Shown here one piece after another: positions 29,107-64,000 of a stretch of DNA of 64,000 bases. Origin of the DNA: Physcia stellaris (taxonomy: Eukaryota; Ascomycota; Lecanoromycetes; Caliciales; Physciaceae); assembly GCA_018902385.1 (NCBI GenBank), contig JABSSW010000001.1, forward strand, positions 744,001 to 808,000, written 5' to 3'. Position numbers and translations under genes: made by a program. Positions within the stretch are counted from its first letter, which is position 1. Every line of letters begins with the position of its first letter. Below the pieces are notes generated by a model. The model saw nothing but the letters and a program-made list of their open reading frames with translations, ran no database searches and was not told the origin of the DNA.

Positions 29107-29401
29107 CACAAGCGTACTTTCAGCCTGTATGTACGATTCAAGGCGATTTGATGCAAAGATATGACTCTTTGCTACTTTTGTATTCTACGCGACTTGATGC
29201 TTACAGCAGCAGACCGTGCTGCTTTTTGCAAAGGCTGTGCGGGGCTGACTCGCCGATCGACATGCAGCACTGCCACTCATTACAGGTGAGGCAGCAACTC
29301 TCACCGCATTCATTGTATAAACTCTCACTGTGTCCATTATACAAGTGCGCCGTCTCATTAATGTACCCCTGTTCTTTTGACAAGTAGGCGTCTCATTCGA
29401 A

Positions 29402-35439: not shown

Positions 35440-35767
35440 TGACGATACATTGAGAGATATCTTGTAGATAGAACGTTGGGCAAGGGACAAAAGTTTCAGG
35501 AACGGTTGAACAAGATCTTCGAATCGTCATCATACAGTAGCTACTCGTACTCTACCCTGCAGGAACACTAGGCAAGATCGGCACAGGGTCTAGAACTAAG
35601 CGATTAAATGCGCTGTTTGCGCACTCAGCAAGGGGACCTTTCTCTACCCATCGTGAAGGTTGGATGGTATCTATTGATGATGAACTGTAAAGCAGTGACC
35701 AACAGCCTGCCGATGCCGCAATTATGACTTTTCTCTCACGATACGCGGGCAGTAAACCGTTGCGTCA
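35440..35767. promoter_or_regulatory. Divergent promoter, sirtuin / mitochondrial CDF transporter
   Basis: 328 bases between divergent starts. No recognised motif. Both products are probably mitochondrial, which makes shared control conceivable. Confidence 0.4.
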
Positions 35768-37190: not shown

Positions 37191-37684
37191 AATGAGTTGG
37201 GAGTACCTAGGTATGGAGACATGGCCGGGCTACCCCACTCCAGAGCTATGAAGATCAGCGCACATCTCATCGGCCAAGCCTTCCTTCAAGGTATACTACA
37301 ATTTACAGACGCTAAACGGCAATCAAGCGCCATCTCAGTCTCGCTGTTTCCGCGGTCAAAAGCGACCTACGACGGCAGCCGCGGTATATCAACGCTTAGA
37401 GGTCACCCGCCAAGGCTGCAGCATCGAAAAACCCCAGTGATGCCCATTGTTGTGTGCAAATATCCTCGTGAGTTTCATTAGCTCAAAGAGAAATTCGAAG
37501 CAACCTCAAACCTTTCTGCTGTTCGTACGAGTACTCCTCTACCCCGCGCTTCAAGAAGTGCCATGGTCTCTGTAAATACTATTGATAAGTTTGACGTCAT
37601 TTATGTGCTCCCATTGATATACGCGCTTCACGGCAGATAATTTCACTCTTACAGGACACCTCAATTCGAATTCTTGTTGATATT
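37191..37684. other. Intergenic, transporter to xylulokinase
   Basis: 494 bases. A 95-codon plus-strand frame (37197-37481) lacks resemblance and is treated as chance. Probably 3' UTR plus the xylulokinase promoter. Confidence 0.4.
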
Positions 37685-39452: not shown

Positions 39453-39972
39453 TACGATAGACAAAGCCATAAATGTACTAGAGTCGATCAAAGGGACTTG
39501 CTAGTCACAGGTATAAAAAATGTCAGCCTACCACTGATTGCAGGTGGACCTTACCGCACAAAAATCAAGTGTGCCTTTACTTCGTAGTGACTGTTTGAAC
39601 ACAAATCCCGTCCGATTCTTGATTCCATCACTATCGTACATGCTCGAGGTTGGACTGTATTAATAATAATATTAGTGCAATTTCAGCTCATATCTGCAAT
39701 CGCCCACGATGATCTAAAGTACTCGTAAGCTTAGCCCTAAAAGCAAGCTAGTAGGAAGATTTGCGGAGAACAACGCCAGAGCTTAAGGTAACTTGAATAC
39801 CACCTGCTCTATTGCCTCCTCTTCTCTAAGGATGGACTTGTCCCGCTTCTTGGATGACACCGGGTAGGAAGCAAAAGAACTATCCATGTCCTCATAACCC
39901 TCCGCCCATGAAGCAGCAAGTTAGGCAGGACGAGGATCGCTCTCCTTCGCCCTTCTGCAAGCTTTCTCGACC
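39453..39972. other. Intergenic, xylulokinase to DCR2-like gene
   Basis: 520 bases. Open minus-strand frames overlapping 39809 onward are antisense shadows of the phosphatase gene. Nothing else recognised. Confidence 0.45.
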
Positions 39973-41728: not shown

Positions 41729-42382
41729 GGGACTAATGAGTGAGATATATGTTATAAAAGGACAGGCCTGGGCCCTTTTCCGGAATGGGTGAGCGGAGGC
41801 GTTTAGGGATGGTGGATGTATGAGGCGGCATCTTGGGCCTTCCGGTCGAGGGATTCATCACGCGTTGCCATGTTTCCTCAATTCTTCTGAATATTGCTGC
41901 TTCTATCTACGAAGCCATCAGGCGACAAGGCGGCTATTCATCCCACCAATGCATCCTGTGTCGTACTACCTTTATTCGCCACTCATTTGTTTTGAAGACT
42001 GAAAAGTTCTTGTTACCGTGTATATGTGCTGAAGTCCTTCTGTAGATTGCTGAAGCTCCGGTCGACTCTGGCATTTTCCTACCGAGTTCATGTGTGCAGC
42101 GGGCTTCGCTAACTTCGCTTTATTGGCCGTTTGGACATCCAGCAAATTGACAACCCGGCAGATGATACGATGAATTAGTCTGAATAGTTCAAGGTCGTCG
42201 ACACAGAGCCATCCGATATCTCTTCTAACTGGAGACTTGGATATGGTCGCTCACTGTCATATTGTAAGGAGATGATTGTCAATAGATTCCTACATAGAAT
42301 CCGAGGAGTAAAGAATTCCGGAGAAAAGCAACCTTTAATTTCCAAGGGGTATCCCATCGACGAATCACCTACTTTTTGGAAG
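41729..42382. other. Intergenic, convergent 3' ends
   Basis: About 650 bases between the phosphatase stop and the probable LOS1 stop. Nothing recognised. Confidence 0.45.
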
Positions 42383-45300
42383 CTAGGCTAAGCCCATCTT
42401 CCGAGAAAAGGACTGGGTTATGCAAAACTCACGCCCAGAGCTTCCATCATGCTCGGTATGCAGTTCAACCACCTGTCCAATCAACGCCTGCAATGTTTCG
42501 CTAAATGAGGATTATGAGTAATACCGCTTATACCGTGGGTATCATTGCCTAGTTCGTTGGACGAGATTCTATGATAGGATCAGTATGTATAGGTTTGTAG
42601 ATTAGTAATGGTCGCTGCCTACCTGAAAGAACTGCCGAAAACCTTTCGCATCGAGTCCGGCTAATGCATTGAGATATTCATTGATGGTTTCGTCGCCCAT
42701 CCCCATGTTTCGAAGTTCAACATCTCTGAGATATGTAAAATAGCTTTGCCCAGTCTTGGAGAAGATTGTTTTCTGTAGGATAGCCGCTTCCCCTAATGCC
42801 TGTTTTCCCTGAGCATCTTTCGAATTGAAATTAGGGTTACTTGGTATCGCCCAACACAAGGGCGAGAAGTGGGTAATCATGAATTGATCGAACCCGGGAA
42901 GCGATGGCTCAGCAATGGTGCTGACGGATAGGTCCCTCTGTCGCGATGGAACAACGACATCTGGGCCGCCCCAGACAGTGACCATCTTAGTGAGCACAGT
43001 GAAGGCTAATTTCGCGGTGGGATAATCTGAAATGTCCTTTGCGAGGTGTTCGATTGTAGATATCACGGCAGGAAACGCAGGCTGGTTGGTCTCACTGACC
43101 AGAGCAGAGGCAAGGCTGTTGTTCATGAGATTTAGTAGAAAGGTGAGGTATTCTCTTTTCAGTTCAGCGAGCTGTATCTCGTCGTCTGTCCCACTGGCGG
43201 GCTCATTTATGCCGGAGAAGACTCTCTGAAGGAATGAAGTGAGGAGGGTGTTGAGAATGTCAAAGATCTCCGATTTGAAGCCATAGACGACCTGATCAAG
43301 AAGCTTGAGGAAAAGCGCCATCTCGTCCTTTGTGGATGTTTGGGACAACAGTCCATCAATCCACCTTGGAAGCTGCGGTAGGATACGACTTCCAAGTACT
43401 CCTATGAGGCGAGAGAAGCTGAATCTTGCAGCCTCTCGAATCTCAAAAGATGCGTTTAGAGATTCTAAAGCAAGTAGTATAGCTTCGGCAGTTTGCGCAA
43501 ACTCCTCAGAGACAGGTTTTGCCGGGGGAGCAGAAGCTGGCGATGTGTTCGCAGGAGTCCAATCTGAGAAGCCCCGAGCGAGAGTCCCTAAAGCCATGAT
43601 GAGGTGGTGGACCTGTAAAGACGCTCGCTCGTCGCCTGCCTTGGCTGCGTTAAGGTGGGCTTCTAGATCCGAAAATAACGGATTTATCACCGATCTAATA
43701 TACCGGACCTGGTTATCCACAGGCACTGCATTAGTGGAGCAGATACAGCCGATGGCTTCATAAAGGTAGAGCTGACTATTGAACCTTGCACTGGCAGATT
43801 GATCGTTCTCGTCCGAGGACATGTCATCATTATCCGAAGCGCTTTCTGGCAGCTCTGCTTTTATGGGAAGCAAATCGCTCACAGCCTGGATGACATTTTC
43901 TGCAATGTTTCCAAGATGTTGACGCAGGGATTTCGAGAATCGAAGAAACAAGTACCACGATCGAGCTCTGACTTTGACATGGTTGTGATGTATGAATTCG
44001 ACAAATTTAGTGAGGGCGCGCGTGATAAGATGAGCGTTCGGTTCGAAGAAGGCCGAATAGCGAACACATAACTCCATGTACTGAAGCTGGATAGCTGGAT
44101 GTTGAGACGAAGCCACATCTAGAAATCTGTTAGCAAGATTAAGAATACGTAGCACATCAGTACATTGTTACCTGACTCGACCAACTTGAACATGGTCCCT
44201 ATAAGACACTCGGCAGCTGGAGAAGCGGGTTTCGACTTGCTGTAAAGGCCACCGTCCTTCATAGCCAAATCTCCAAAAAGATACATTTGGTGCATAGCCA
44301 AATCAAGATCCCGCCAATCGAGTTGGCCATTCTGATTCTGGAACTTGTCGAACGTTGAGATCACAACATTATTAAATCTGTCAAGGCAGAGATTCTCATC
44401 TACAGCTGCAACCGCTCTTTGCAAATTGTGCAATCTTTTCCGGAGCTCTTGAAACTCTGCCTCGTCCGTCTGTGCGTCTTCGTTGCCCCATGAGGCTGTT
44501 TCATCGTACCTCATTTTGGCAATGACAGCGTCCAAGATTGCCGGCAGCATGCCTGAGCACTCCGCATACAGTGAGCTGTTCGACTTCAATTTGTTTCGCA
44601 GGAGGGTAAGAAGATCGGTAAGGCAGGGAATTACTGTTGAGCAGACCTCATCATACTCGTCAGAGAAAAAGCGAAGAACAAATGGCACGAAGTTCTGCAA
44701 TTGAGCGATTGCTCGCCGAGAGACAGGATCACCATCTTGTGCTCCATCGAGTGCTTTGACTATGTCGAAAACTGCATTGTTGACTAGTCTAGCAACGGAT
44801 TCTGCTAAATCTGTATCATAGTTGAAAGTTGAACGAAGCTCGGTTAAAGCTGGGCTATTGACCAGCTGGGATACAACCTCGTTCACCTTTAGGATATCTA
44901 TAAGCTCGAGCTTGTCGCCTGCACTCATCTTTTTCCCGATGATCTCGATGACTGTGTCAATCGCCGCGTCTCTTTTCTTATTAGCGACGGTATCCTGCAG
45001 GGAGTTTGATGGGTGGCTGAGTAATTCAAAGAGGATGTTGAGCAAGGACTGGTTGACAACCAGGGCAATATCCGTCCAAGAAACCCATCGGCCAATGGCT
45101 GTTAGGCACAACTCAGTAATAGTATCGTCGCGCATTCTCCACTCAGATAGTATTTCTTGCCAGCTGGACGCAATAGCAGCAGCGTCTCTCTGGCGAACCA
45201 TGTCCTTAAGATCTCTGTGCCTCCTCTGCTCATCTGGTGATCTGGAGACCATGACGTCTGCTATCTCGTCGTGCACAGATATAAGGGTGCGTAGGTATAT

Positions 45301-45845
45301 GAGGATCCCCGGAACATTAGTCTTTCCCAAGTTACCATTGTTGGCTGTCAAGGCAAGAATATCCTGAAAGAAGGATGTCCATTCCGAGCTATACATAACG
45401 ACGAACAGATAGGTAAGTGTCTGCGTCAGTTTGTTCTGGATACTTGTCGAATCAAGCTGGCTATTGGGCCCATTCCTACCGCCGTACGTCTCCCGGGCGT
45501 AGGCCATGATATTATCTCGGAGAAGCACCAGATTATGCTGGTCCAACTGACCGACTTGGATAGCATGATTGATGATATCCAAAGCCACGTGCCGGACTAC
45601 GTCGGAAGACCTTGGAGTTCGTATGGCCAGAGATAGGCATACTTGCCAGCCTTGAGGTTCATTGCGGAGCTGATTCAGGAACTCAAACGCTTGTGCTTTG
45701 AGTGACTGCTCCACTCGGGGATTCCAGGCGATTTCGATGGCATTTTCAACCTACAGACATGGTCAATAGGGCATCCTCTTCGCAAGATAGGTTAATTAAG
45801 TTTTGTGGTAGAACACGGCGGAGTGCCGCATACCTGAGCTTCCAT
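42383..45845 (-). CDS. LOS1: Exportin-T, tRNA nuclear export receptor
   Basis: Exons 45845-45834 (MEAQ), 45750-44172, 44118-42623, and a last exon that is uncertain. The body of 1,029 residues is all-helical HEAT repeats of the importin-beta type: [59 protein letters not shown]. Los1/XPOT carries mature tRNA out of the nucleus with RanGTP. After FFQ a GTAGGC donor is clear. An acceptor at 42488 yields a 34-residue tail ending at 42383; another at about 42499 yields an 11-residue tail. A further donor (GTGAGT near 42433) means the C-terminus needs transcript evidence. Confidence 0.92.
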
Positions 45846-46333
45846 ATTCGTGCTCACTGATGATGGTCAGGATGCCTTTGCAGCAAATGTACGAACACAA
45901 TACCCGATTAATAAATGCATATGATTGGTCCTCCACAGTATGTCGTGGGACCATTGGAATCTGTGCTATCGAGTCATAGGCGTGAAGAAGCGTGTGTTGT
46001 GAAAGTCACACATTTTCTACTCGTACCACAAATGAAAATGGCAGACAAATCGTTATCGATAAGCCATCTCCAACCAGATCCTTCGCAGATGTGGGACAGA
46101 TGATGGATAGAAATCGAACAGAAACGGGGAAGTTCAGCGTGAGTTCTGCTGGGCGTGGTACAGTAGGATTCAAAAGGTTTAGGCGGATGAGGCAACTGGT
46201 CACATTGGCTGTCACGTGTTCGCTCTCGGATTTACTTGAGGCTTTAGGAAGAACTTAGAAAGCTGTTGGCTACTGGACTACCGAGTAGCTATTCCACTGT
46301 GCTGGCCGTGCCCAGTTCCATTGATCTTTGTGC
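45846..46333. promoter_or_regulatory. LOS1 upstream region and TFIIIA 3' flank
   Basis: 488 bases upstream of the LOS1 start and downstream of the TFIIIA stop (both minus strand). No specific motif recognised. Confidence 0.4.
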
Positions 46334-48012
46334 CTACATTAGACAGGGATCTAATGCTGTTGGATCCTCACCCTCCCGCCCATGATCCGCCAAATGACTG
46401 TCCGCCTTTGCAAACACACTACCACTCCATAGAGCTTCTTTCCCCGCTGTGCCATTTGCGTGTGGAACGTCCTGACCGCCAAGCCAAAAGCTACCACCAA
46501 CAGAAGCTTGATACTCCAATCGGTCGAAGTAGTCGTCAGGTAATCGAGAGTCAGCCTCCAGCTCTAGGGCGTCGGTATCAAAGAGACTGCTCGAGCCATG
46601 TTGCGCCTGCTGATTCAAAACATCCGAATATTGCTGGTTATTGTCAACTTTCGCTGTGTCCAAGTCATGATAGCTCTGAAGATGGCGGTGCAAGTCATAA
46701 TCTCTGGGGAAGCGATGCTCGCAGCCTTGAATTGGGCATTCTAATTCGCGCCCTGCCTCGTAGCCAATCCCAGTCAGACGCATCAGAGTTGTATCGTTTG
46801 ACCCCCGTCCTTTGTCTTCTCTATCAGATCTTCTCAGTCGGTCGAGACCAAGATGGACAGTTCGAATATGCCCAATCAGGTTGTACTTGGAGGACAAGGC
46901 ACGGCCACAAGCGTTAGACCCATCCCAATTATCGACATGCATGAGTGTTGTGGGATCAACCATGCCACAAACGAAAGATCTGGCTTCCTCATGGATTTGT
47001 TTTATATGCTTGTTGAGATTGCTTTTGCTGGTGAACGACCTTCCACATCCAGTTTCGATACAAGGGTATTTCTTGCGTACTTCAATGTCCAAATTGCTGT
47101 GCTTCGCCTCAATGTGTTGTTCCAGGGTCTCATGGTTTGCAAATTTGGAACCACATACATGGCATGCGGGTGGATGATCCGTCCTAATGTGGCCTTGCAA
47201 TGCTACTAACGTTGGATAGCTCGTATCAGATGCCAAACATATCGTGCAATAGTAGCTCCTCCCGGAATGTACCGAGTTCACATGGTTTCGAAGGTTCCCT
47301 TCGATATCGAAGCTAGCGCCACACGCGATTCCATTATGGTCTTGCTGATCACACACGAATGGCTTTCTCTTCCCCTCATGAACTACGGCGATATGCTTCT
47401 GAAGTGTGTTGTGCTTCCTGAACTCTTGGCCGCACCCTGGAAATGTACAAGCGAACTGTTGCCGTTTGATGTGCAACTCTTGATGCCTTTTCAATCTTGT
47501 GGATGTGACAAAAGTCTTACCGCAGCGCTCCCATTGGCAGACGTAGTCCCTTTTGTCGGAATGTGCAGATTTGATATGGTGCTTAAGGTGTGATGAGCGG
47601 AAGAAGGCTTTGGAACAAGGATTGTGAGGGCAGACGAAAGGCCGAGTGTTGGTATGAGAGTTCAGGTGCTGGACCAGCTTTGCTTGTCGGTTAAAGGTCT
47701 TCGTACAGCCAGAGTATGTGCAAAGTATTGTTTTGCAATTGGACGGAACTTGTGGAGAGTTGGGGTCGGAAATGGGAGTCAGAGGCGTTTGGGCATTAGT
47801 CTTAATCTGATGTGTATCCTCCTGGCTTTCGTCGCTGGATGAATCATTATCGCTTACATCGGTAAAGTCGGATCCTGTGGAGATCAGCAGGCAGTGTAGA
47901 CGTTAGACTGATTGAATTTACCCTCCCCCAATCTACTAGGATCCAGACGGCGCTTTTTGGATGATAAATGCTCTGCTGGGGGGCACTTTCTTTTCGAAAT
48001 TTGACTAGCCAT
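46334..48012 (-). CDS. Transcription factor IIIA-like C2H2 protein
   Basis: Exons 48012-47922 and 47874-46334; 543 residues. A basic start (MASQISKRKCPPAEHLSSKK) and acidic linker precede about nine to ten C2H2 fingers in tandem: CTYSGCTKTFNRQAKLVQHL, CPHNPCSKAFFRSSHLKHH, CQWERCGKTFVTSTRLKRH, CTFPGCGQEFRKHNTLQKH, CGASFDIEGNLRNHVNSVH, CTICLASDTSYPTLVALQGH, CHVCGSKFANHETLEQH, CIETGCGRSFTSKSNLNKH, CGRALSSKYNLIGHIRTVH and CPIQGCEHRFPRDYDLHRH. The count and spacing fit TFIIIA, which nucleates Pol III on 5S rRNA genes. The C-terminal 130 residues lack fingers, as in yeast Tfc2. Another long-finger factor cannot be excluded. Confidence 0.88.
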
Positions 48013-49231
48013 TGCGAATAGCGATTCAGCAGCTCAATCATTGAAGGATTTCTGGCTGGTTATGTCATCCTGTATTGAGAGGCTTTATCAAAGCATTGAT
48101 GGTTAGGAGTGGTAATCTGGGCCAGGAGCGCGCATGTAGTAGTAAGCGTTATTGAAAAGATTAATCGTTGTGGGCGGGGCAAAAGAGAGCGAAAAATCAA
48201 GTCCCTTAGCGTGATACTTCGCTCACACATGGTGGTACCCGGCACTCGTCCCCAACTACTTATGCCCACTCGCTCTTGATTATTTCTAAAAGTTCGACCA
48301 CACTTCATGTAAGCAACCCCACCCCCAACTTTTGCCCTTCATATATTCCGGCGCTCAGGAGAGTCACCTGAATCTCACGCTAATAATCTTTGTGCAACAG
48401 AGAATCATTTCTAAAGTATGCGTCTCTCACTGGTTTTCTCACAAAAGCCACAGAATCTCCAACCTGGCTGATGACTTATTTCCTTGACACCCAAGAGTGA
48501 ACGACCTTATACTCTCGTGGCCTTGTGCCTCTTGGTCTCCTTGGAGATTCCCGAAGAGAGTGGTGATGATCTCAACCCTGTCCTGATGTCTGGCTTCGGT
48601 CGGTCGGGCTGGGTGGGTGTTGATGGAGGTCTGACAGGCTTCATGTAGTCAAAGTAGTGATATCGAGTTTTGGATGGGTGGCTCTCGTATATGCTTGAAA
48701 TCGCATGTGTATCTAGAACAATGAACGAACTCACTCTGTAGCACCTCGAATAATACTAGTATCATTTGATGCTATGTCTTCCTGTTGAATCCCTCTCGCA
48801 AGAACTCCTTTTGATGTAACGAACGCACACATGGATGGTTGCTTAACACAGGTTTAAGCTTTGATGTTTGAGATATGATCATGGAGATTTCCATCCTGAC
48901 GGCAACATCTGACTTTCAACCGTTAGGGCAATTTTCAATTTTGGTGTGGTGTTTATATTCGCTTATTAATAGTGGCAACCAATCGTCGATCGTACTGGAC
49001 GACCATACATACTGTACGGAGACCCACACCATTAGTTCTGTCAGCTGGGTTAGGGTTGAGTAAAATTCTGCACCCAAATAACGCGCCAGACCCTAACCCT
49101 TCTGACAGAACTTATGGTGTGGGTCTCCGTACGTACATTACTCCGTAGTGCCACACAGTTTCTTCTTTTCACATGCAAATCATCGAGGATAGAAACCGCA
49201 TCCTAAGCAGGGTCAGCGGTTTACTTCAAGC
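48013..49231. other. Intergenic region with a MITE
   Basis: 1.2 kb between divergent TFIIIA and the peroxin. It contains the palindromic element at 49017-49129. A 75-codon minus-strand frame (48734-48507; MSSFIVLDTHAISSIYESHP) is open but unrecognised. No tRNA or 5S gene seen. Confidence 0.45.
49017..49129. mobile_element. MITE-like palindromic element 1 (113 bp, TA-flanked)
   Basis: Terminal inverted repeats of about 40 bases with three mismatches, beginning CGGAGACCCACACCA on both strands and separated by about 33 bases. TA lies directly outside each end (49015-49016, 49130-49131), the target duplication of Tc1/mariner/pogo transposons. The inner part of each arm contains GGGTTAGGGT. No coding capacity, so it would be moved in trans by a Fot1/pogo-like transposase (inference). 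It shares its 15-base tip with the element at 51649-51841. Confidence 0.8.
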
Positions 49232-50813
49232 ATGGATGAATACACAGCTGATGCCTTCGTTAATCGCGAGGAGCCGGTGCCAGTCATCGCTGTCTCAGCC
49301 GACCCTGACCTCTCCAGTCTATCATCTGACAAAGAGCACTCGGAGAGCAAACGTGAGAGACTAAAGGGGAAGCTATCAAACTCGCGTCTCGGTGAGAAGA
49401 TGCAAGATGCCAACAAGCAAGAATCCGGGGCTTCTTTACAAGATCGCCTTTTCAGCAAGTAAGCCAACCCTATCATGAGAAAACCCACAATTCTTCTAAG
49501 GCTATGGCCTACTAAACGCCGACGTCGAAGGTTGATGCAACAAGTCATACCTCATGAAAATGGCGATGTTGTCGATGACGTGCTGGACGAGAGATCTTCA
49601 AAATACATCAGACGCCCTGGGTTCAGTCTCCCTCTTATGACGAACAATTTTCGCCGCTTCAATGCCAGGTGAGAGTCTACAAAGATCTGGAACTAAGCCA
49701 GGCCTGAGATATCTCTAGGATTGGAGTAGTCTTTGTATTTCAGACACGACTAATACGCCTTCTGAATTGGACTACCCCATCTCACACGCTGTCTCTACTC
49801 GCAGTTTGCACCTTTGTGTGCCTTGACCCCTACCTTCTATCCGTTCTACCGATTGCTTCTACGCTACTATTCATCTTGGTACCCGCTTTCCTGGCCCGTC
49901 ATCCTCCACCCCCTGTAGCAGCGTCACAGACATCGTATTCCCTCCATGGACCTCCTCTAGCTCCGCCAAGGACCATCAAGCCTGCAGCTGAAATGTCGAA
50001 AGACTTCTTCCGCAACATGCGGGATCTGCAGAACAGCATGGATGACTTCAGTATCATGCACGATGCAGTATTTAAGGCTCTTGCTCCACCTACCAACTTC
50101 TCGAATGAAGCACTCTCATCAACCATTTTCTTGTTTCTGTTCATAGTAAGCTGCACGCTGTTCGTTGCTTCCCACCTCTTGCCGTGGCGGTTTCTGTCGC
50201 TTGTCATCTGCTGGACAGCCATCATCCTTGGTCACCCGTCTGTCCAGAAGTTCGCCTTAGCTACTCGAGCGTCTCATCTACGGCCACGCGAGAAGAAAGC
50301 ACAGACATGGCTCGAAGGCTGGATAGCCTCTGACATAATCCTTGATGCACCGCCAGAAGAGCGTGAAGTCGAAATCTTCGAATTGCAGCGACGCAAAGGA
50401 GGTCAGGCGGGGAATGGGAGCCTTGGGTCTTCGGTCCAAGTCCGTACGATCCGTTATCACCACAGCGCATTTCTGGCGACAGAGCGAAAGGAACACGCTT
50501 CTTCGAGGATGTACAGCCGCCAACAGGATGGGAATGGGGCGATAGGAAGTGGGTACTTGATATGGGCAGTAAAGAGTGGGTAGAAGATAGAATGGTACAG
50601 GGTGTTGAGGTGGAGATAGAAGGTGAGAGATGGGTGTTCGATTTGGCTGAAGAACGGATCTATGATACGAATGGAGTGAAAACTAGAGGCTCACAGGGAA
50701 AAGCCAAGGTGCCAGATTGGGAAGAAGGGACAGCCACCGAGAAGACAGGTGAATGGAGAAGACGAAGATGGGTCAGAACGGTCCGGAGGCAAGCCATTGA
50801 AGCTTTCGAATGA
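49232..50813 (+). CDS. Peroxisomal membrane peroxin of the Pex23/Pex24 (DysF) group
   Basis: Exons 49232-49458, 49531-49668 and 49719 onward. The start MDEYTADAFVNREEPVPVIA and RRPGFSLPLMTNNFRRFNAR are typical of fungal Pex24-type proteins. Membrane segments include LSLLAVCTFVCLDPYLLSVL with PIASTLLFILVPAFLA, and STIFLFLFIVSCTLFVASHL. The C-terminal DysF domain shows WEPWVFGPSPYDP, RFFEDVQPPTGWEWGDRKW and MGSKEWVEDRMVQGVEVE. These peroxins sit at ER-peroxisome contacts and set peroxisome number and size. The frame changes by one base near the GGGG run at 50409-50412; the downstream frame is the family one. I read this as a likely homopolymer error. Confidence 0.85.
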
Positions 50814-50844
50814 TAGTGAAGATGTTCCTCCTTGATTGGGACCC

Positions 50845-51543
50845 TTAATCAATCTTTCGTTTCGATTTCTGCCACATCTCCACCCTCCTGCTGATGTCAG
50901 CTTCGGTCTGCTGTTTTGGATTCAACTTCGGGTCCATGCTCATCGATTTGATATCCTGCCCATACTTAGTTACCAGTTGTTCGATCCATTCCTGTTCTCT
51001 ATGGCTTTGCTTGCGGGGCTTCTTCTTTCCCTCGATCACCGCCAGTTCCGTTCGAGCGGCGGCCTCAAGCTCGGGTACCACCCCAGCGTGATCCATTCTA
51101 TCATGGTTGGTGCGATCCCAGGTCTCGTGGGCTTCAGTGACTTGATTCGTCGCAATCAAAGGGTCATTGAGTGGATTCCACCTTGTGTTCTCGTCGTAAA
51201 CCACTTTCAAGATCCTACCCTCCTCGTCCCTCACAACTTTTGCCGTTTGCAGGCCTGTCGTGGTTGCGGGTTTCGAAGCCGCGACAGCTAGCGCGTCATG
51301 TCTGCTTTGAGTCTCGTATTTCATAAGCTCTGAGTCCGTAGTTTTGACCTCTGTTCCTCCAGTCCTAGCATTAAGCTTACTTGTCAAACCCAGACGGCGA
51401 TAGTTTTGAGATAAGGTGAGGTGCTTGTCCCATTTTGCTGCAACAAGAGGGGAGGCCTTGATCGGCAGACGTTTTGATTTTGGTTTCTGGGTCGCACGAG
51501 GAACGGAGGATCGGTTCTTCTTTTTCTGGAGCATACGACCCAT
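50845..51543 (-). CDS. NOP16: NOP16, nucleolar 60S ribosome biogenesis factor
   Basis: Single exon, 232 residues. The basic start MGRMLQKKKNRSSVPRATQK and the phrases AKWDKHLTLSQNYRRLGLTS, VVYDENTRWNPLND, and YGQDIKSMSMDPKLNPKQQT with the C-terminal ISRRVEMWQKSK are characteristic of fungal Nop16. It acts in early pre-60S particles. The MITE at 51649-51841 lies about 105 bases upstream of the start, in or near the promoter, and the AT-rich repeat block begins just beyond it. This is the last host gene before that block. Confidence 0.92.
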   Translation of the reverse strand: MGRMLQKKKNRSSVPRATQKPKSKRLPIKASPLVAAKWDKHLTLSQNYRRLGLTSKLNARTGGTEVKTTDSELMKYETQSRHDALAVAASKPATTTGLQTAKVVRDEEGRILKVVYDENTRWNPLNDPLIATNQVTEAHETWDRTNHDRMDHAGVVPELEAAARTELAVIEGKKKPRKQSHREQEWIEQLVTKYGQDIKSMSMDPKLNPKQQTEADISRRVEMWQKSKRKID

Positions 51544-51648
51544 TTCGAGGTACGTAGAGCTCTTGTGGCAGTGGTATGCTCAAGACCTTTATGTTTAACC
51601 CTCTCAAGCAAAGCAAATTCAGAGGGGGCGATGACCCTAAATCGGCTA

Positions 51649-51841
51649 CGGAGACCCGCACCAAAAGTCCTGATGTGCGCTAAAAACAGGGGGCCATTAG
51701 AGGGGGCAGAAGTAACCATCGAAATAGATTGAGGGGGTATGCCTAAGCTGCCAAAGGCGGGCTGCCGGGGGCAGCTGTTACTTCTCTAACCCTAAAAATT
51801 CAATAATCTTGGCACATCAGGACTTTTGGTGCGGGTCTCCG
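51649..51841. mobile_element. MITE-like palindromic element 2 (193 bp, TA-flanked)
   Basis: Perfect 30-base terminal inverted repeats starting CGGAGACCCGCACCA, with TA immediately outside both ends (51647-51648 and 51842-51843). The inside is G-rich on the left and carries a further short inverted match (AGAAGTAAC). No coding capacity. The 15-base tip differs from element 1 by one base (CGGAGACCCRCACCA), so both likely belong to one family. It sits between NOP16 and the AT-rich block and does not share that block's base signature. Confidence 0.85.
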
Positions 51842-51899
51842 TAGGGTTATGCATGAATTGGAATTTATGCTACAAACCCAATTTTTGAAATAACTCAAC

Positions 51900-54040
51900 A
51901 ACGAAACGTGATATTGACCTGATTAACGCGTCATTCGAATCGCCGAACCTTTGCGCACCGATCAGTGAACAATTGATGATAATGAAAAAAATAACATGAT
52001 CGTTGTTAAATCAAACGAATGAAAACGTTCACGAGCAAAAAACAATGTTGTTGAAAAACATCAAAAAATGTCGAAAACTCGTTCGAACAAAAAAAAAATC
52101 ATCATCAAAAATCATTGAAAATTGATTTACAATCGTCGTGACATATTTTGAAAACACGCAATTTGCATTCATTCAAAAAAATATGATGAACGCAATGAAC
52201 AAAATGATTGTTCAATTCAACAAAAAACACGCGAAAATGAAAAAAAGCAATGTCATGATTCGTCATGAAATTACAAAAATAATCATTTTTTTTAAATTTT
52301 TCTTTTTTTCACGATCAAAACGAATTCACGCAATTGAACAATCGTCGTTGCGATTTTTTCAACGTTCAAAATCATCGCAAACAAAAACATCGAAATCATA
52401 ATACGTTTAAACGACAACGAAAAAAAACAACAATTGAATCAATACGAAATCAAACGTATCGTCAATGAAATCAACACGTGCATTACGAAAAAAAACATAC
52501 AAATCAAAAATATTCGAACGATCAAAAAACTTTCGAATGATAATTTCGCGATACACGCGATAAACGCAAAAAAAGCAAAAAAATTGCGAAACAACAATGC
52601 ATGAACGACGATACTCGATAAAAAAACGAAAACGATCGTTTCGATTTACGCGATCATGATCAACGAAATAAAAATCAAAAAATTCGATTTAACAACGACA
52701 AAAAATAAAAAAACGACGATGCATAAAATCAAAAAAAAAAACGAAAACGTGAAAAAATTAAAAAAAATGAAAATTTTGTACGTGTTTTGAAAAAACAAAT
52801 TCACGACAATGCAACAATATCATTTTTTGATTATTGAAATCACTATTTCAAAAATGAATAACAATATGTTGAACAACAACATCATGATCGGAAAAAAACT
52901 GAAAACTTGCTCAATGTTCAACAAGACATGCAAAATTATTCAATGTTATAAATGTCATCATCACGAACACAATACAATTCAATGCACAAAAAAAGAACGA
53001 TACGATTACTGCGCAAATGCGCATGTTACAAAAAAAAATGTGCAAAAAATTACAAAATCAAATGTTGTGTATGTGAAAAAACACATAATTCATGAAAAAA
53101 AAAATGCAAAAAAAAACAAAAAAAAATCGAGAAAATCATGTATTAACGTTCGATTACGTCAACGAAATTCGAAATTCAAAAACAACAATACATCGTCGTC
53201 AACAAAATGATAACGATTTCGAAATCGATGAATACAATTCACGAAAATTCAAAAACGACAATCGTTGCGAAAAAATTCAATCAACTAAGAAAATTACAAC
53301 GACGAAACATCGAAAAATCACAAAAAAAAAAATTTATTTAAACGAAATCAACAAACGCAAAAAAACGAACGCGCATGAATTTCACGTGAAAATGATTTTG
53401 TCGATCGAAACAATAATGTTATCGCAATTATTTTCAAATTCACAAAAATCTCGAAACAAAAAAAATGATAAATCGACGTCATCGATCAAAAATAAAAAAA
53501 CATCAATGATCAAAAAAAAATATGAAAAATTTGAAAAAAAAGAAAATTTTTCGTTCACGATCATCAAAACATCTTTAATTAACGTCACGAATCGAAATAC
53601 GAAATTCAAAACAATGAAAAAATGTTAAAAAACGACACATTATCGATATTACAATACAACGTCAACAATTCGAAAATTCAAATCATGATATCGCTGTTCG
53701 AAACAAAAAACATAAAAAAATTCGATATATTGATCATGCAAAAATCATGAAAAAATTCATTTCAATTCACGACAAACAACAAATTTTCGCAACAATTCGA
53801 ATTATTGTACATGTTCGATGCAATCACGAGAATGTGCATGTTCGTCAACAAAAAAATAGCGAAAATCGAATATTTTCACACGTTTCACAACAAAAATTTA
53901 ATTTCGTTAAAAATGCAAATCGCGAACGACAAAATTATCAACATTCACAACATGTATAATTTATGCAAAAACAACGAAAACTTCAACGCGATATTCAGTT
54001 TTAAAAACGCGATGCAAAAAAAAATCAACGAAAAACACGT
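51900..54040 (+). mobile_element. Decayed non-LTR retrotransposon (LINE, Tad/I-like), 5' part
   Basis: Plus-strand LINE, 5' boundary not exact. An ORF1-like segment at about 52800-53210 has a zinc knuckle CYKCHHHEHNTIQC (C-x2-C-x4-H-x4-C, 52944-52985) followed by a second Cys cluster, as in fungal Tad-type ORF1. From about 53640 an AP-endonuclease domain starts (phrases ILIMQKSW and IHNMYNLC). It is interrupted at 54040 by the LTR element and resumes at 61504. Reading frames are short and repeatedly interrupted, so it is inactive. Clade is by resemblance only. Confidence 0.7.
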
Positions 54041-54234
54041 TGTTATGGCACAAGACCAGATTAGATGATATGAACTTAAATCAAATATTCTGACATGACT
54101 TTTGACAAAGGTTTTGTCGTCATCTCATACTAAATGAATGATGATCAGACAATTGACTCGCAATTATTGTACATAAATTGACATTTTGTCGTTTATAGTT
54201 TCTAAATCAATCAATTCACACATTACGCATAACA
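54041..54234 (+). repeat. 5' LTR of the Gypsy fossil
   Basis: 194 bases, starting TGTTATG and ending CATAACA, a 7-base inverted end with the canonical TG...CA. About 92% identical to the 3' LTR, with roughly 16 differences, all transitions. Confidence 0.92.
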
Positions 54235-57200
54235 ATTGATAGTATCATTCAAGCGATGATCTGTACGTAGACAAAACGACATCATTTTTTGTCTTTTAAC
54301 GTATCAGTTTTCGAACAATTTTGTATTCAAACGATCAAATCAATTGTTCATCATTATTTTCGTCGTTGTCGTTGTCGAAAACTTTATTGTTCGTTCGATT
54401 TGACGTGTCGATCGAAATCAATCATCAGCAACAAATATTCAGTTGAAAATGAGAATTTCAATCAAATTTTTCACTTTTTTTTTACAATTTTCAGCAAAGA
54501 TGATTGATTTTTCATTCAAATATTCAAAACATTTCGAGTTTTCGTTGAAATTCGCATTGTCATCGCTCAGTGACGACGCATTTGAATGTCAATTCACATT
54601 TGAATTTTTGTTTGATTCGAACAATTTCAATTCAACGATTTCATTTGTTTTTTCAACAACAGAAAATTTGTTCAATTATTTTGGAAATTTCAGCTCGCTT
54701 TTCTTTTTCTTGTTCTGTTTATCATTTTTTATTTCAAAACTTAGCATTGCTTGTCATTTTCATTTAAGTCATTTTGATTGTTTTCATATCACAAATCATT
54801 CGCATTGCGTTCGAATTATTCGATTACATCGATACAATTGATTCGATTTATTTTGTCAATACATCGGCAGAAATTATTGTGAACAACATCGTAATCAGTT
54901 TTTTTAAATCAACATCGTTGTCAGTCATTAATCATTCGATCTCGACAAACATTGTTTATTCAACAAAGTGAATTGTCGACAAAATTCGCTTTCGCAAAGA
55001 TTTTAAAGTTTTTGTTATTGTCACAGAAATTTATCGAAATAGTCAATCATTTCTCGACTGAATTAGTGATCGTGTTACGTCATTCATTTTTGATTTAAAA
55101 TCGACGATTGCAAATATTTTTCTTGATATTTTTACATTCATTTTTCGAAAAATTTACGTCGTAAATTTCAAGTCATTTCGTCGACGTCGTTTTTTCAACG
55201 ACGAAACAGCATCATAATTTCGCTGAACATCATTTTTCGAAACACAAAAAATATCGAATTTATTTTCGCATTCAATTCAGATATGACGAGCGAGAATAAC
55301 AATTGACAAAACACGAAGTTCACGCAACAGCAATGACAAATTTTTCAAACATTGATTACAAATGTTCGAAACGATGTTCAGACAGAATTTCAAGATTTTG
55401 TCGAATCATCAGATTCAATCGAATTTTCTGACAATGATGATGACGTCAAATGAAATGCTCAAAAAACAGAATTTTTCGATTCGTGATACGAAAAAAAAAA
55501 CGTTATCATCGGCAATTCGATCGAGCATTCGAACAAAAATACATATTTTCGAAATGTTCATTTCTATATTGAAAAAATTAAAAATATGACATTGTTCAAA
55601 GATATTGATGTGATTCGAACAAATTTTTATAATTGTATGCGTGATCACGCGTTACGTTGATACACAGAAATAATCAACGATGATCAAAAACGATTGATCA
55701 AACTCGAAAATGACGTAAAAAAATGAAAACGTTTGTTGTTGAAACGATACAAAAAATCGTCATCAACAGCGTTGACGATTATCACGAAAAAAAAATACAC
55801 GATGAAAAATGTTCGTCGATATCGCGAATCATTCGATTTCGCTGAAATTATAATCAGAAAAATTAAATCGACAATGATGTCAGTTTATTCGCAATTGTAT
55901 CTAATTTACAATGAATTGAAATTGAAGTTTCGACGAGATTTGATCAAATCGACAAAAAAAATTACAATGAATGAGTTTTTTCAACAATTTGATGATAAAA
56001 AGAAAATATGATGAAACATCGAAAATCGATATCGATTTTATCATTCGCTCGAAGACGAACGTCGTTTTCAATTCATTTATCGTTTTCAATTATCAGTTTT
56101 GTCAACATCATTCGATTCGTATAATATTTTTTTTGTTATCAATGAACGTGTAGACTACGAAAATTTCAATAAATTTTTTTCGCAGTTTCGTCAAATTCAA
56201 TATTCGACATCGTATCAGTTTGAAAAACAAAATAACGTTTACATTTTTCAACAGCGTTCATATCAGTCAAATTATTCAAATCGACAGCAATCGACACAAA
56301 ATATGCAAGAACGTTCATACGGAAATCAACAATATCGATTTCAACAAACGCAACAAAACGAAACTCAAGAAAATCGAAACACGTTCGATTCGCGATTTCA
56401 ATATTCGCAATTTTTACGTTTTAGTCAATATTTTGCTGATTTTTCAAATTCATTTTCGTTTTCGTTTAAACAAAATATTTATTTTAATCAGAATGAAGCG
56501 TCAAATCAAGATGAAACATTATATCGACGAACGTATTTTGCGAAAGAAGAAACAAAAAACAATTATTCAATCGATGAGAAAAATTATCAAAATGATCACA
56601 GCATGAATACTGAGAACGCGTCAGAAATATTTATGATAAATGATGAATATCATGACGAGAAACATTTCGAAACTCAGAAATTTAATGAGAATTATGTGAT
56701 TCATGAGTCATTCGAATATTTTGTGAATATTTCAGTCAAGCAGACAAAAATTTATTCATGCAAACGTTGTCAATCGAAATTTTATTTTAATAACAAATTT
56801 TATCGACATTTGCGCTCGTGTCAGGCAGTTTCGATTAAATTTGACACATCGTCGACGAAAAATGTTCATAATTATCAGACATCTATCATACAATCAAGTG
56901 TCAAAACAAATACACGACTTAATTTCGAATTTCGCTCGTGACGTTACGTCACGATGAAGACAAACATAAAACAGTTTTTCATTGATATGTGCGTCGATAT
57001 CGAATGCGATACATTTTTAATCGATCGTAAATTTCTGATGCAAGAAATATTTGATTACAAAACACATGCGCGACAAATCATGAAATTTTTCAAAATTCGC
57101 GATATCGAGAATGTCGTCGTCACAACAATTGATCATATTTCATTAATTTTTCGTGTTTTTGAAATTTCGATTGATGACGAGAATACGATTGTCACGTTCA

Positions 57201-60200
57201 TTCGGCAAATTTACATAGTGAAAAAACTGAAAACAAAAATTCTTTTAGACAATGATATACTGAATTCAAAGCAAATGAGTATAGACGTAAACAAACAAAT
57301 CGTTATTATAGAAAGCTGCAAGAATATTCGAATTAAGTTAAATGTCATTAATGTTGAATCGCAAGTCAAACGCGTTGTTTGTGTCAACGAAATTATTAAA
57401 ATTTCAATTAAATCAATTTTTACAATCTTTTTCAAGTTACGCGAAAAGAATAATTTATTTATTGAACGCGATTTTATGTTCACGTTTTCACGAATTGAAC
57501 GACTAAATCAAAATGAAAACGTACTTTTTCATATTATCGATGCACATACAAAAATCGTTCAAGTTCACAACATCAACGTTGAAAATGTCTACATTCTCAA
57601 AAATACGCGTTTTGGGCTCGTACAAGAATACGAGAAAAAAAGATGCTATTTAGCTAATTCGGAATACGCTCATTTAGCTGCTAATGCTCATAAGTTTGTT
57701 TCTAGAAATTGATTCAAGCAAACGTTGAAATTTGATGTTTCGATCATGACAGCTGACGCGACTATGACGACTAGCTATGAAAATTTGCACGATGCGATCG
57801 CGATTAATTTCGTCGATGCAAATGTCGATTCTGCGTTCAATTCTGCACGCAATTCTAACGATTCTACTGCTGTAAATTCTAGTATTAGTGCGAAAGAAAT
57901 GTTGTTTGCTGAAATTATTGTTTACGATGACGTTAACGCTCGAACTAAGTTTGCAAACGTTGCGTTGAACTATTCAGAACTGTGAAACGACAATGAATTT
58001 ACGATGAAAATTTCGAAAAATGAGTGAATGTTAATCGAATTGAAATTTGACGTCAAAATCGAAACAACAAAGATGTATTCGCTTGATTTCGCAGACAGAA
58101 AATTTGTAAACGAAATTTTTGACAAACTACATGCACAAAAACGTATGAAATACATTATTCAGTTTACGTCGCACGGTTATTCAGTATTCGCAGTTTAACG
58201 AATCGTGTTTGAATCAAATGAATCAGAACGCAAAAAACGCGTCGTTGTGAATATACGTGATTTAAACAAAATCATTTTAATCGATTTTTATTTTATGTTT
58301 TTTCAATCAGACATTATTTCAGTTGTCGTCGAATGCAAATTCATATTCGTTTTTGACGTTGCGAATTTCTTTCATCAGTGATTGATAAAGTTTGCAAATA
58401 AACATAAGTTTATCGTCGTATCACATAAAGAACAAGAACAATTTAACGTCGTCGTGATAAATTTCAAAAATTCATCATCATACGTACAGCGACGAATCGA
58501 CTTCATTTTTCGAAATTTTCGCGAGTTTGTTCGTGTTTACGTAAACGACATTGTCGTTTTTTTCAATATTTTTGAAAAACATATGATTCATTTACACTCG
58601 ATATTCGAACGACTGAATATTTATGAGATTAGTTTGTCGTCGAAAAAATCATTTTTCGACTATTTTACGATCGCATTTCTTGATCAGAAAATTGACGTTT
58701 TTGATTTCATTATCGCAATCGATAAGTTGAAAACAATAGTCAAATTGAATTTTTTTTATATTTTGAAGAATTTGGAAGTTTATTTAAATTTAACAGAATG
58801 ATTACGAGAATTCGTCGCGTTTTATGTTCAAAAAACGAACGCGTTACAACGTCGCAAAATTTTATTTTTACGTCAGTCATTTTTCAACAAAGACATCATT
58901 CGCAAAGTTTATTCGCAGAAAATCGTAATGAACAATTTTTCAATTGAGAAATTAGAGTCATATCGACTATTGCAGAAGATTTTTAGCAAAATTTCATTTC
59001 TGATACATTTCAGTCTCGATCGAAAATTGTACATCGATATCGACGCGTTTAAACGACGCGAATTCGACGCGATAATTTATCATTTCAAAACAGACAATAA
59101 TTCAGACAAATTCAAGCGTAACGATATCGAGTTCATTTTATTTCTAAATCGAATGCTGAACGAAATCGAAATCAAATATTGATTCACCGAACTCGAAATG
59201 TGTGATTTAATATGAATTGTCAGAAAAATTCGACATATGATAAAAACAATCAAAAATATCATTGTTGTGTTCACGAATCATGTCGTCAATATTTTCATCG
59301 TTAAACAGATCACGATGAACTCGAACAACATCGATAAGTTCAATTTTCGTCTTGTTCGTGTTTCAGTTTATTTGTCACAATTTAGATTGAAAATGAAATA
59401 TAAATCAGAAAAAAATCATGTTGTTTCGGATGCGTTATCAAGATTAGCGTTTGAAAATGAACAAATCGGCAAAAATTCAGAAAATAGACTTGATTTGAAC
59501 ACATATCATGACGAAATAATCGATTTTTCGAATAATTTCGATTGTTACGCTTTTCAAAACACTCTTATTGTCATGTCGAAAAATTTAAAAAAAAAGATCA
59601 AGAACGAGTATCAGAGAAAAAAGACATGACGAAACATGATCAAAATGTTAAAATCGTTGACGATTCGAATGCAAAAAAAAAAACAGAAATTGTCGATTCG
59701 AGATTTTCAAATTTCATCGTCGCTCGAAAACAACGTAGCGAAACGAAACGTCAGTGAGCAAAAAAATGACGATACGAAATTTATATCAAGAAAGTTCAGA
59801 ACAGAAATCAATTTCGCGTTGAATACGAATGACATTATATATCATGTTGACATTGACACGCGTCGATCGTGTATATTTGTTGTTGTGAAACGCGAAATAT
59901 TTCGTTTAATTCACGATACGAATCAACATTCAGAAATTCATCGATGCTATGACAGAATTTTCAATACGTTATACATATTTCGATTTTCGCGAAAAATTAA
60001 AAGATATATCGAGCATTGTTTTATTTGTCAGTTGACACAAATCAAGCGTCATCGATCGTACGAGAAATTCATATTTATTACATTCGTTTCGCGTTCGTTT
60101 CATATCATTGTCATTGATTTCATTTTAGTTATGTTCGGCGAAATGAACACTGTTATGTTCGCAATTTGTAAACATTCTCGTCGAGTTTCATTGATTTTCG

Positions 60201-61309
60201 ACAAAAACATTTATGAAACGAAAAAATGAATCAACGCATTACTGAACAGACTATTAATCGTCGACTGAGAAATGTCTGAAATTATAATTTCCGATCGTGA
60301 TTCAAAATTCATGTCGAATTTTTGACAGATGTTTTTCATCAAATTAAACACGAAATTGTTAATTTCAATGACATATCATTCGCAAACGAACGACTTGTCA
60401 AAACGAATCAATCAAATTGTTGAAATTGTTATCAGATATTTCGTCATCGAGTTTCCGAACATCGATTACATTTTAGCTTTTTTTGCAATTCAGATTCAGC
60501 TAAACAACACGTTTAACATCGTTACAGATTTATCATTCAATGAAATCATATACGAATTCAAAGTCAAAAACGCGATATCAAGTTTAATCGCATTTAACAC
60601 AACAAAAATACAGAATTTGTCAACTCAACGCATGAAATATCAGCGAAAAACTGTCGATGTCACGAATTTTGCGATTGTCAAAATCAAAATATATTATGAT
60701 TCGCGTCATATTTCTATTCGACTAAAACAAGATGAAAAAATTTATTTACAATTCAACAAAAATTACAAGCTGTCTGACAAATCAAATTCGAAATTTTTTC
60801 AACAACGTTGTGAATCATTTCGGATTTTTGAACGCATCGAACGTTTCGCGTACAAATTGAAATTGTCATCAACATGACGAATTCATTTCGTTGTGTTTAT
60901 TGCACAGCTCGAATCAACATCTGTCGAAGCTGATTTTTACAATCGTTCGCGTTTTCATTATTTTGACTTCATTGAGATCGAAAACGATACGAATCAGTAC
61001 AAATTTTATGAGATTGAGAAGCTAGTCGGAAAACGAATTAGAAAGTACAACAAAATTTTCGTAATTCAATATCTAGTCAGATGAATCGGCTATGAGTCGG
61101 AATATGACGAATGACGATTTATTTCAGAACTGAACAACGTCACGAATTTCATTGAGCAATATGAATTCAATCATTCGAATGATTCTGATGATCGCAACGA
61201 CAAAAAAAAAACGAAAAGAAAATAAATTGATGCATGATATGATTACGCATGATGATAGAACATGAAATTCAATGAAAACACTGATTTTTCTTTTCTTTGA
61301 TTGACAGAT

Positions 61310-61503
61310 TGTTATGACACAAAATCAGATTAAATGGTATGAACTTAAATCAAATATTTTGACATGACTTTTGGCAAAAATCCTGTCGTCATTTCATACT
61401 AAATGAGTGATGATCAGACAACTGACTCGCAATTACTGTACATAAATTGACATTTTGTCGTTCATAGTTTCTAAATCAATCAATTCACACATTACGCATA
61501 ACA
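61310..61503 (+). repeat. 3' LTR of the Gypsy fossil
   Basis: 194 bases, same length and same TGTTATG...CATAACA ends as the 5' copy. The LINE resumes directly after it. Confidence 0.92.
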
Positions 61504-64000
61504 TACGTCGTCGTGAGAAATTTTAATTTACATCATTTCAATTGAAAAAAATCACATGTGAAAACAAACGCGAACGCATACGAACTCATAATCACGATAA
61601 AAAAATATAAATTGAAAAAAATCACATCAATCGAATTAATTACATGAAATAAACACACGAGCGAAAACACAATCGATTTTACATACGCAACATCGTTGTT
61701 TCGAAACAACATAATCGAAATCGATATCGACGAAAGCATGAACAATCATTCGAATTATCGTTCAATTAAAACGATATTCAATTTGCGAACGAAAGCGATC
61801 GAATCAAAAATCACAAAAATTTGAACGAAAACAAATATCGATATATTACGCGAAAAATTGCAAACGAAAATCACGAATAATGAAACGTTCATTTTCAACA
61901 ACGACACGTACAATAATTAAACAAAAAAAATCGACGATCAAATCAAAAAAATGATAAAAATTATTCAAACAATTATCGAAACAATCATTTCGATCAACAA
62001 ATCGAATGTTTACGCGAAATCAAAATTCATCGAAAAATGCAAACAAACATCGAGAACGATCAAATCGATCAAAAAAAAATATCAAAACAACGACAAAATT
62101 GAAAATCTGTGAAAATCGTACAAAAAAGTGAAAAATCGCTTGAATCACGTAATCTCTAAAATCATGAAAACACAATACAAAAAAAAAATCGAAAAAAAAT
62201 ATGATACATCAAACAACATGTGAAAAACATGCAAATGAACAAAAAATCGTATTTCAAAAAAAACTTGTTTGTCGATTTTACACGATCATTCATTCATATT
62301 GTTCGAAACTGATTCAATCAAAAAAGCACTCATATTGCTGAAAAAGTTTTTTTTTTCGCCGTTTACGATTGTTCTAATCGACATACAAAAAATCACATAC
62401 AATCAAAATCTGAAACTGAAAAACATACAATTTCACGAGATGACGAAAATCATAATCAAACAAAATTCGAGCAAAACTTCAAACGACGACGACATAATCA
62501 ATAAAATATGAAAATGAATAAATGATATAATCGCATCACATTTGCAACGTATATACAACGTCAATCTGAACGAAAATTACTGTTCGAAACATTTTCGAAA
62601 ATCGATCACGATCGCACTACGTAAATCAAACAAAAATATCTATTCAATGACGATCTCGTACAAATCAATAATTTTATTCAATATTATAAACAAACTCATG
62701 AAATTCATACTGATCAAACGAATCAATTTTTTGACGAAAAAACACGATTTGCTGTCACGCACACATTTCGAAATCAAAAAAGTCGTGTTTACGAAACACG
62801 CACTACACTACATGATAAAACGAATACACTCGACATGAAACAAAAAATTAATAATCGTGATCATGTTTCTCGACGTGATGAACGTTTTCGACAATATAAC
62901 GCGTTTAAAATTGTTACACAATCTCAAAATGAAACGTTTAAACGAAAAACTGATACGATATATTGACTTTTTCTTGTTCAATAAAATGACGATATTGAAA
63001 ACGAACGAATACGATATCGAATGACTCGAAATATTCATAAAAATTTCACAAAACTCATCGATGTCATCGATTCTTTTTCTCTTTTACAACGCACTTTTAC
63101 TGAAAACTTTGAAAAAAAAAAATATTTCAACGAGCGAGTTCGTCGACGATGTAAAAATGCTGACGAAAAATCACATTTTCGAAAAATGCAACGATATTAT
63201 AATCAAAACACACGAAAAAATTTGCGTATCGTGAACATTAAAACATGAAATGAAATTTGCATTTTTCAAATATCAACTCATTTATTTCAACCGAAAAAAA
63301 AAAACAAACGTCATCGAATCGATATTATTTTTTGAATTTAATCAAAAAATCAAAACAAACAAAAAAATGAAATATTTGAACGTCATAATGAACGAAAAAC
63401 TCAATTGAAAAACACAAATCAATCAAAACAAAACGAAAACATTGAAATCAATAAAAACATTACGCAATCTTGACGACACTACATGAAATGTTAAACTCTC
63501 GAAAATGAAACAAATAATGCAAACGATTTTCGTTTCACAATTCACATACGCATGCTCGATGTGATACACGTCGACGAAAAAAAAAAATCACAACAAAAAA
63601 ATAACGAAAAAATTAACGAACGTTCAATATCAAATCGAAAAAATCATAACGAAAACATACAAAACGATTTCGAAAAAAGCGCTCAACATCGAAATCAACT
63701 CAATGTTCATGCATTTACGTTTGAACAAACTCATCAATGCATTCGCAATGAAATTGATAACAAATTCAACATACGACACGATTATACGCGATCGTTTCAT
63801 CAAAAAATCGAAAAACGTCAACTCATTGAAAAAACTAATGAATAGATTCGAAAGAAAAACGAACATCAAAACACACGATATGAAAAAATTTTTTTTTTGT
63901 CGCATCGTCATGATTTAACATCGTCAATTGCACATATCATGAAAAACAAAAAAAAAAATCGAAAAATATCATAAAATACAATTAACAATGAATTCGATCA
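61504..64000 (+). mobile_element. Decayed LINE, 3' part (endonuclease end and reverse transcriptase)
   Basis: Continuation of the LINE interrupted at 54040. First comes the remainder of the endonuclease (about 61504-62000). The reverse transcriptase follows (about 62270-63250 and beyond), recognised by the order of blocks such as SKHFRKSITIALRKSNK, YKSIILFNIINKLMKFILIK, and HALHYMIKRIHS, which match fungal Tad/I-type RT. Frames are short and repeatedly interrupted. It leaves the window at the right edge, so the 3' end is not seen. Confidence 0.75.

Follow-up and report, generated by a model that had tools for sequence, protein, structure and literature searches.

What kind of process could remove almost every CC and GG from a stretch of fungal repeats and leave CA, TG and CG in place? 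This question is raised by one end of a 64,000-nucleotide stretch of the Physcia stellaris genome (contig C1, positions 744,001-808,000, from a 44-Mb assembly; hereafter the window), where a sequence-only reading had noticed such a pattern and had suggested a variant of repeat-induced point mutation (RIP) with altered methyltransferase specificity. The affected block is a dispersed element resembling a long interspersed nuclear element (LINE), which has been split by a long terminal repeat (LTR) retroelement, and each of the two is present in many copies. By aligning mutated copies with unmutated relatives, it was found that cytosine changes to thymine where its 3' neighbour is a pyrimidine (CpY), on both strands and with CpC changing faster than CpT, and that this signature is real and present across the genome. 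We regard RIP with such a CpY specificity (CpC above CpT) as the probable explanation. The parts of the window that matter here are as follows:

1..51600, no strand assigned: ordinary, low-repeat background DNA (from dinucleotide counts)
51647..51843, no strand assigned: repeat of 197 bp resembling a miniature inverted-repeat transposable element (MITE), with inverted ends of about 32 bp, unmutated (8 other copies)
51862..54039, + strand: 5' part of the LINE-like element, mutated except for its first ~100 bp (genome matches and a map of CC/GG)
54040..61503, + strand: LTR retroelement, mutated, inserted in the LINE-like element (terminal repeats and domain matches)
54040..54234, + strand: left LTR, 195 bp (terminal-repeat comparison)
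61309..61503, + strand: right LTR, 195 bp (terminal-repeat comparison)
61504..64000, + strand: 3' part of the LINE-like element, mutated, continuing past the window (genome matches)

The pattern is expressed here as observed/expected dinucleotide ratios, for which both strands were counted and the block (51,880-64,000) was set against the background (1-51,600). CC stands at 0.06 in the block as opposed to 0.95 in the background and CT at 0.36 as opposed to 1.09, whereas CA (1.28 vs 1.10) and CG (2.79 vs 0.85) are retained, which bears out what had been read from the letters. TA had been described as not strikingly raised; it is indeed not raised, but the description understated the case, as its ratio of 0.42 lies below the 0.70 of the background. 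When counted as the share of C among pyrimidines, C makes up 0.018 of those before C in the block (0.446 outside) and 0.106 of those before T (0.504 outside), with 0.564 before A (0.608) and 0.481 before G (0.430). Between 51,862 and 64,000 there are 36 occurrences of CC/GG; among 1,000 mononucleotide shuffles the lowest count was 477, with 544 as the average. A control that could have refuted the reading did not do so, in that CC stays at 0.73-1.10 of expectation in 41 flanking 1-kb bins (2 before the block and 39 after it). The standard RIP indices do not signal RIP, with TpA/ApT at 0.42 and (CpA+TpG)/(ApC+GpT) at 1.28, where the quoted thresholds of 0.89 and 1.03 would class either value as unmutated (PMC3828140). 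Since these indices score the block as clean, genomes with CpY-directed RIP can be mistaken for genomes free of RIP. The block would be detected by the RIPCAL index for CpC, (CpC+GpG)/(TpC+GpA), which is 34/1805 inside it and 6010/7480 outside.

The direction and context of the change were established from alignments in which unmutated relatives in the same genome (L001 and L002) served as references. Over 3.5 kb, and with strands pooled, the saturated copy L007 differs from L001 by 878 C>T, 29 T>C and 18 transversions, and the fractions mutated are 427/433 for CpC, 399/460 for CpT, 28/442 for CpA and 16/409 for CpG; a second saturated copy, L008, gives 251/259, 240/279, 29/266 and 8/243 in the same order. 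The same ranking is found in a second family, where the partly mutated copies L051, L052 and L053 were aligned with unmutated L002: CpC is changed at 355/461, 401/460 and 425/463 sites, CpT at 189/427, 215/429 and 317/428, CpA at 13/449, 15/447 and 30/451, and CpG at 10/446, 13/443 and 14/445, respectively. Thus the proposal of C-to-T change before a pyrimidine, on both strands and in both the LINE-like and the LTR element, is borne out by these alignments. The additional suggestion that CCG is partly spared is not; raw counts give that appearance, as 21 of the 34 CC remaining in the block stand in a CCG context, but in the alignments mutation has reached the first C of CCG and the first C of CCA equally often (99/100 vs 127/128 in L007, and 93/111 vs 108/128 in L051). 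CCC is slower than either in L051 (62/98 mutated), which would follow if the middle C of the three is often the first to be converted.

Two explanations can be set against these contexts directly. The first is classical RIP directed at CpA, with its traces altered by ageing or by base composition. Among ascomycetes this type is the common one (PMC12543289), but it is contradicted here, since CpA is not the main target (28/442 in saturated L007, and 1/437 between the sister copies described below) and TpA, at 0.42 of expectation, is not raised; we consider its chances close to nil. Ultraviolet damage would likewise reach CpC and CpT, which are dipyrimidine steps, but TpC has been kept, the share of C being 0.657 in the block vs 0.665 outside for the context T_A and 0.514 vs 0.450 for T_G, and damage is restricted to repeats. 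The retained TpC contradicts this explanation, to which we give practically no credence either.

A closer view of how the changes accumulate is provided by L051 (contig C95) and L052 (contig C51), sister copies that are 95.7% identical and have a common mutation history, and which constitute a natural record of single, later mutation rounds. Their differences comprise 74 G>A, 14 C>T, 16 T>C, 6 A>G, 3 transversions and several small gaps, with the base changes lying mainly in two clusters, at alignment positions ~1,176-1,447 and ~2,641-3,474. From L051 to L052, change is found at 47/70 CpC, 37/262 CpT, 1/437 CpA and 2/449 CpG, so that CpC is favoured about 300-fold over CpA and CpG combined (by arithmetic, on small counts). 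When L051 is compared with L002 over a 600-bp stretch, successive 200-bp intervals have 16/25, 24/28 and 28/38 sites changed on one strand, and 3/27, 0/20 and 1/23 on the other. The changes fall largely in patches where mainly one strand is affected, and they look like strand-wise events rather than site-by-site decay.

C>T in one-strand patches could also be the work of a DNA cytosine deaminase, either AID/APOBEC-like or of some unknown kind, in place of a methyltransferase-type enzyme. AID/APOBEC enzymes choose their target by the 5' base, but here it is the 3' base that decides, and no clear influence of the 5' base is seen, the mutated fractions in L007 being 0.57, 0.46, 0.49 and 0.50 after A, C, G and T. 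An enzyme of the C5-methyltransferase type therefore fits better, as it is the 3' side that is read, and a deaminase appears to us quite improbable. A search with the APOBEC_N profile gave no match in the genome, to which little weight is attached, since its controls gave nothing either.

The process acts on integrated DNA and extends well beyond the two elements of the block. In the window's LTR element, the left and right LTRs are 91.8% identical over 195 bp and differ by 16 transitions, 15 of them in CpY/RpG context (contexts read by eye), and by no transversion; since the pair differs by CpY transitions, mutation postdates insertion. Among 30 loci of this LTR element (L020-L049, of which L020 is the window's), the fraction of C before C is at most 0.02 in 24 and 0.04-0.12 in six, these values including unmasked flanks. 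Stops inside reverse-transcriptase matches amount to 249 TGA, 33 TAA and 3 TAG (149 of 150 rows tallied, 10 of them stop-free), and those inside DDE_1 matches to 44 TGA and 3 TAA (10 matches, one stop-free); the excess of TGA fits CpC targeting, because mutation of CpC converts a Trp codon to TGA. A ribosomal DNA (rDNA) unit, L050 (G000:C41, ~45,899-46,052), with matches to the large-subunit, 5.8S and small-subunit RNAs, is mutated at CpY as well and has 7 CC/GG in 3,154 bp by simple count. It holds the sole 5.8S match reported in the assembly, from which the working rDNA array is presumably missing; a search with an exact conserved 5.8S pattern gave no hit. As DNA transposons and an rDNA unit are also hit, the process is not tied to retrotransposition, and editing of complementary DNA is ruled out by these same targets together with the LTRs that diverged after insertion.

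It might be supposed that the pattern is an artefact of assembly or base calling at modified cytosines, which could be limited to methylated repeats. Conversion is nearly complete, however (CpC 427/433 in L007), the sister copies are partly converted with boundaries between patches, and TGA stops are found across independent element families, and we hold an artefact to be very improbable.

The abundance and identity of the two elements in the block are documented by genome matches. When three parts of the block were used as queries, at least 39, at least 40 and at least 39 further matches were obtained, some of which are pieces of one copy; the first and last of these counts belong to positions 58,200-60,900 of the LTR element and 61,600-64,000 of the LINE-like 3' part, and 28 other places match the LINE-like 5' part at 84-96% identity, from query position 263 or 256 on. 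The LTR element matches Integrase_H2C2 (E 4.2e-09) and, just under the cut-off, RVT_1 (E 9.4e-07). The name LINE-like follows the call of the sequence-only reading and a CCHC-like knuckle judged by eye; two pieces of open reading frame from this element were tested, and neither gave a match to a Pfam domain.

At this locus, the one at which the limits of mutation were checked base by base, the change is confined to the repeat and fades at its ends. The depletion had been placed at 51,880-64,000; it is real, but its extent is corrected, in that the LINE-like element starts at 51,862 and continues beyond the window's end, as far as about position 1,197 of L013 (~65,197 when the window's numbering is extended), with the depletion setting in after 51,958 and ending before 65,137. 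CC/GG is zero at 51,959-52,300 and at 64,500-65,136, while the element's first ~100 bp have 6 against 8.6 expected and its last ~67 bp have 6 against 5.5. The unique flanks are unaffected (40 observed vs 39.3 expected, 41 vs 41.9, and 58 vs 65.1). The adjoining MITE-like repeat of 197 bp has at least nine copies in the genome, of which the eight others are 85-94% identical to it, and these nine have 25-41 CC/GG each and no context bias, with differences at 18/392, 31/570, 15/224 and 23/417 sites before A, C, G and T. Long repeats are mutated and this short one, a single family, escapes. Elsewhere in the window, a gene for a fungal U3 small nucleolar RNA lies at 48,393-48,639 on the + strand.

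Several observations weigh against RIP with a CpY specificity. From L052 to L051, change is found at 2/24 CpC, 14/242 CpT, 0/429 CpA and 5/456 CpG. CpA is somewhat raised over CpG in older copies, as in L008 (29/266 vs 8/243), and in 15 pairs of LTR-element copies differences amount to 0.096 at CpA and 0.064 at CpG; because CpA differs more often than CpG in these pairs, there may be a CpA component that is weak or old, and the excess in the older copies L007, L008 and L020-L049 is perhaps a weak second specificity. CpApC is prominent in two LINE pairs (11/75 and 10/49) and less so in the LTR-element pairs, where it stands at 0.102 and CpApT at 0.127. The 33 TAA and 3 TAG stops are left unexplained by the CpC route, and a strict CpY rule accounts neither for the TAA stops nor for the raised CpA of old copies. 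The mutated rDNA unit is odd, given that rDNA is often protected, as in Neurospora crassa (PMC5496416). Lastly, L002 (contig C5) and L003 (contig C12), a LINE-type pair 95% identical over 3.4 kb, have escaped, with no CpY bias among their differences, which in the open frame lie mostly at third codon positions (128, as opposed to 15 at first and 7 at second positions); recent arrival, rare sex or incomplete efficiency may account for this. Both members of this pair look functional and coexist with many mutated relatives.

The cytosine methyltransferase genes of the genome, to which the sequence-only reading had pointed, were searched for with the PF00145 profile, which gave four matches in three genes. 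One of these scores 607 bits to 9bap_A, an entry named DNA (cytosine-5-)-methyltransferase that we take to be DIM-2, and is accordingly called DIM-2-type. The other two, on contigs C6 (L009/L017) and C5 (L011/L019), are probably of the Masc1/RID type; their catalytic parts are 40% identical to each other, an N-terminal part is common to both, and one of them has a long, low-complexity-looking insert between the N-terminal and catalytic parts. Each of them carries PCQ, along with EET or EQT, and each looks intact, since the pair of TGA within the match of the C6 gene falls in stretches that were judged by eye to be introns. The replacement of ENV by EET or EQT is, on our assumption, a mark of the Masc1/RID family. 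In this family, motifs VIII and IX are described as being separated by a short stretch (PMC2432034), which was judged by eye on unspliced frames in both genes, the family being assigned from the description. The proposal of a RIP variant holds as far as a RIP-like process directed elsewhere than at CpA is concerned, and an altered enzyme would have two Masc1/RID-type genes and one DIM-2-type gene as its candidates.

The same genes lend some support to a passive alternative, in which repeats would carry stable CpY methylation, set by a RID- or DIM-2-type enzyme as in methylation induced premeiotically (MIP), and would lose their 5-methylcytosines by slow deamination with no active mutator; for DIM-2, a published table gives activity at every CpN and a preference for CpT (PMC13297926). 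The rates speak against this. Between L001 and L007, CpC has received about 4.3 hits per site as opposed to about 0.017 for T>C, a ratio of ~250-fold by arithmetic, which exceeds the 10-50-fold excess reported for deamination of 5-methylcytosine (PMC5870242) and hence argues for an active rather than a passive process. The one-strand patches in the sister copies also resemble events, and we judge methylation followed by decay to be unlikely.

If RIP with a CpY specificity is at work, long repeated DNA would be recognised, probably through homology between copies and in the sexual phase, and its cytosines would be turned into thymine on both strands only where a pyrimidine follows, with CpC the fastest, CpT at very roughly 0.1-0.5 of the CpC rate, and CpA and CpG wholly or almost wholly spared; the changed specificity may reside in one of this genome's methyltransferases of the Masc1/RID type. 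We lean, by a small degree, towards a more specific version, in which a target site specific for CpY has evolved in one of the two Masc1/RID paralogues and the whole genome is policed by RIP that reads the 3' base in a manner near-opposite to that of Neurospora. Were this the case, the specificity of RIP would be an evolvable property of the short target-recognition stretch of RID, and a class of RIP would have been missed by surveys built on CpA/TpA indices.

In the literature, much CpT change has been described in the N. crassa element Tad1 with RIPCAL (PMC2621366), and alignments of RIP-capable fungi have been reported in which CpT dominates (PMC7882544). CpA, CpT and CpG signatures have been reported among 10 genomes, CpT together with CpA, where RID/Masc1-like genes were found in one or two copies in five CpA species (PMC4352252), and CpC>TpT double changes occur alongside CpA RIP in Monilinia (PMC8959702). 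A paper on Rhizoctonia tabled the spacing of single nucleotide polymorphisms by context, CpC included, and proposed a CpG bias, while a 2025 screen of 1,239 species concluded that a CpA preference is common to RIP-like defences (PMC12543289). No CpC- or CpY-specific RIP was found in the literature searched, which did not cover Clutterbuck 2011, a possible precedent. A share of CpT in RIP is therefore not new, and it is the lead of CpC together with the sparing of CpA that is without precedent in that literature.

When compared with individual systems, the process described here resembles RIP in N. crassa (RID and DIM-2) in that C changes to T on both strands, long repeats at dispersed sites are the targets and RID- and DIM-2-type genes are present; the order in N. 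crassa is CpA>CpT>CpG>CpC (PMC5496416), whereas here CpC precedes CpT and there is almost no CpA or CpG. Trichoderma reesei likewise has RIP-type C>T, in crosses, but CpA and CpG are about equal there, followed by CpT and then CpC (PMC5496416), so that the context which comes last in that fungus comes first in this one. In Botrytis, Sclerotinia and Magnaporthe, CpT is used, and species with CpA signatures have one or two copies of RID/Masc1-like genes, but CpT accompanies CpA and the signatures named do not include CpC (PMC4352252), as opposed to CpA being spared and CpC leading. Basidiomycetes such as Microbotryum have a context-limited C>T bias in transposons as well, although the target there is CpG or TpCpG and the enzyme Masc2-like, with no RID (PMC4352252; PMC2621366), and CpG is spared here. 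In Ascobolus immersus, MIP is repeat-directed and depends on Masc1, an enzyme of the Masc1/RID family, but it methylates without mutating (PMC4352252). A near-saturating process directed at CpY departs both from the CpA preference and from the CpC-last order that have been reported, and provides a natural specificity variant with which to ask which enzyme writes the mutations and how the 3' base is read.

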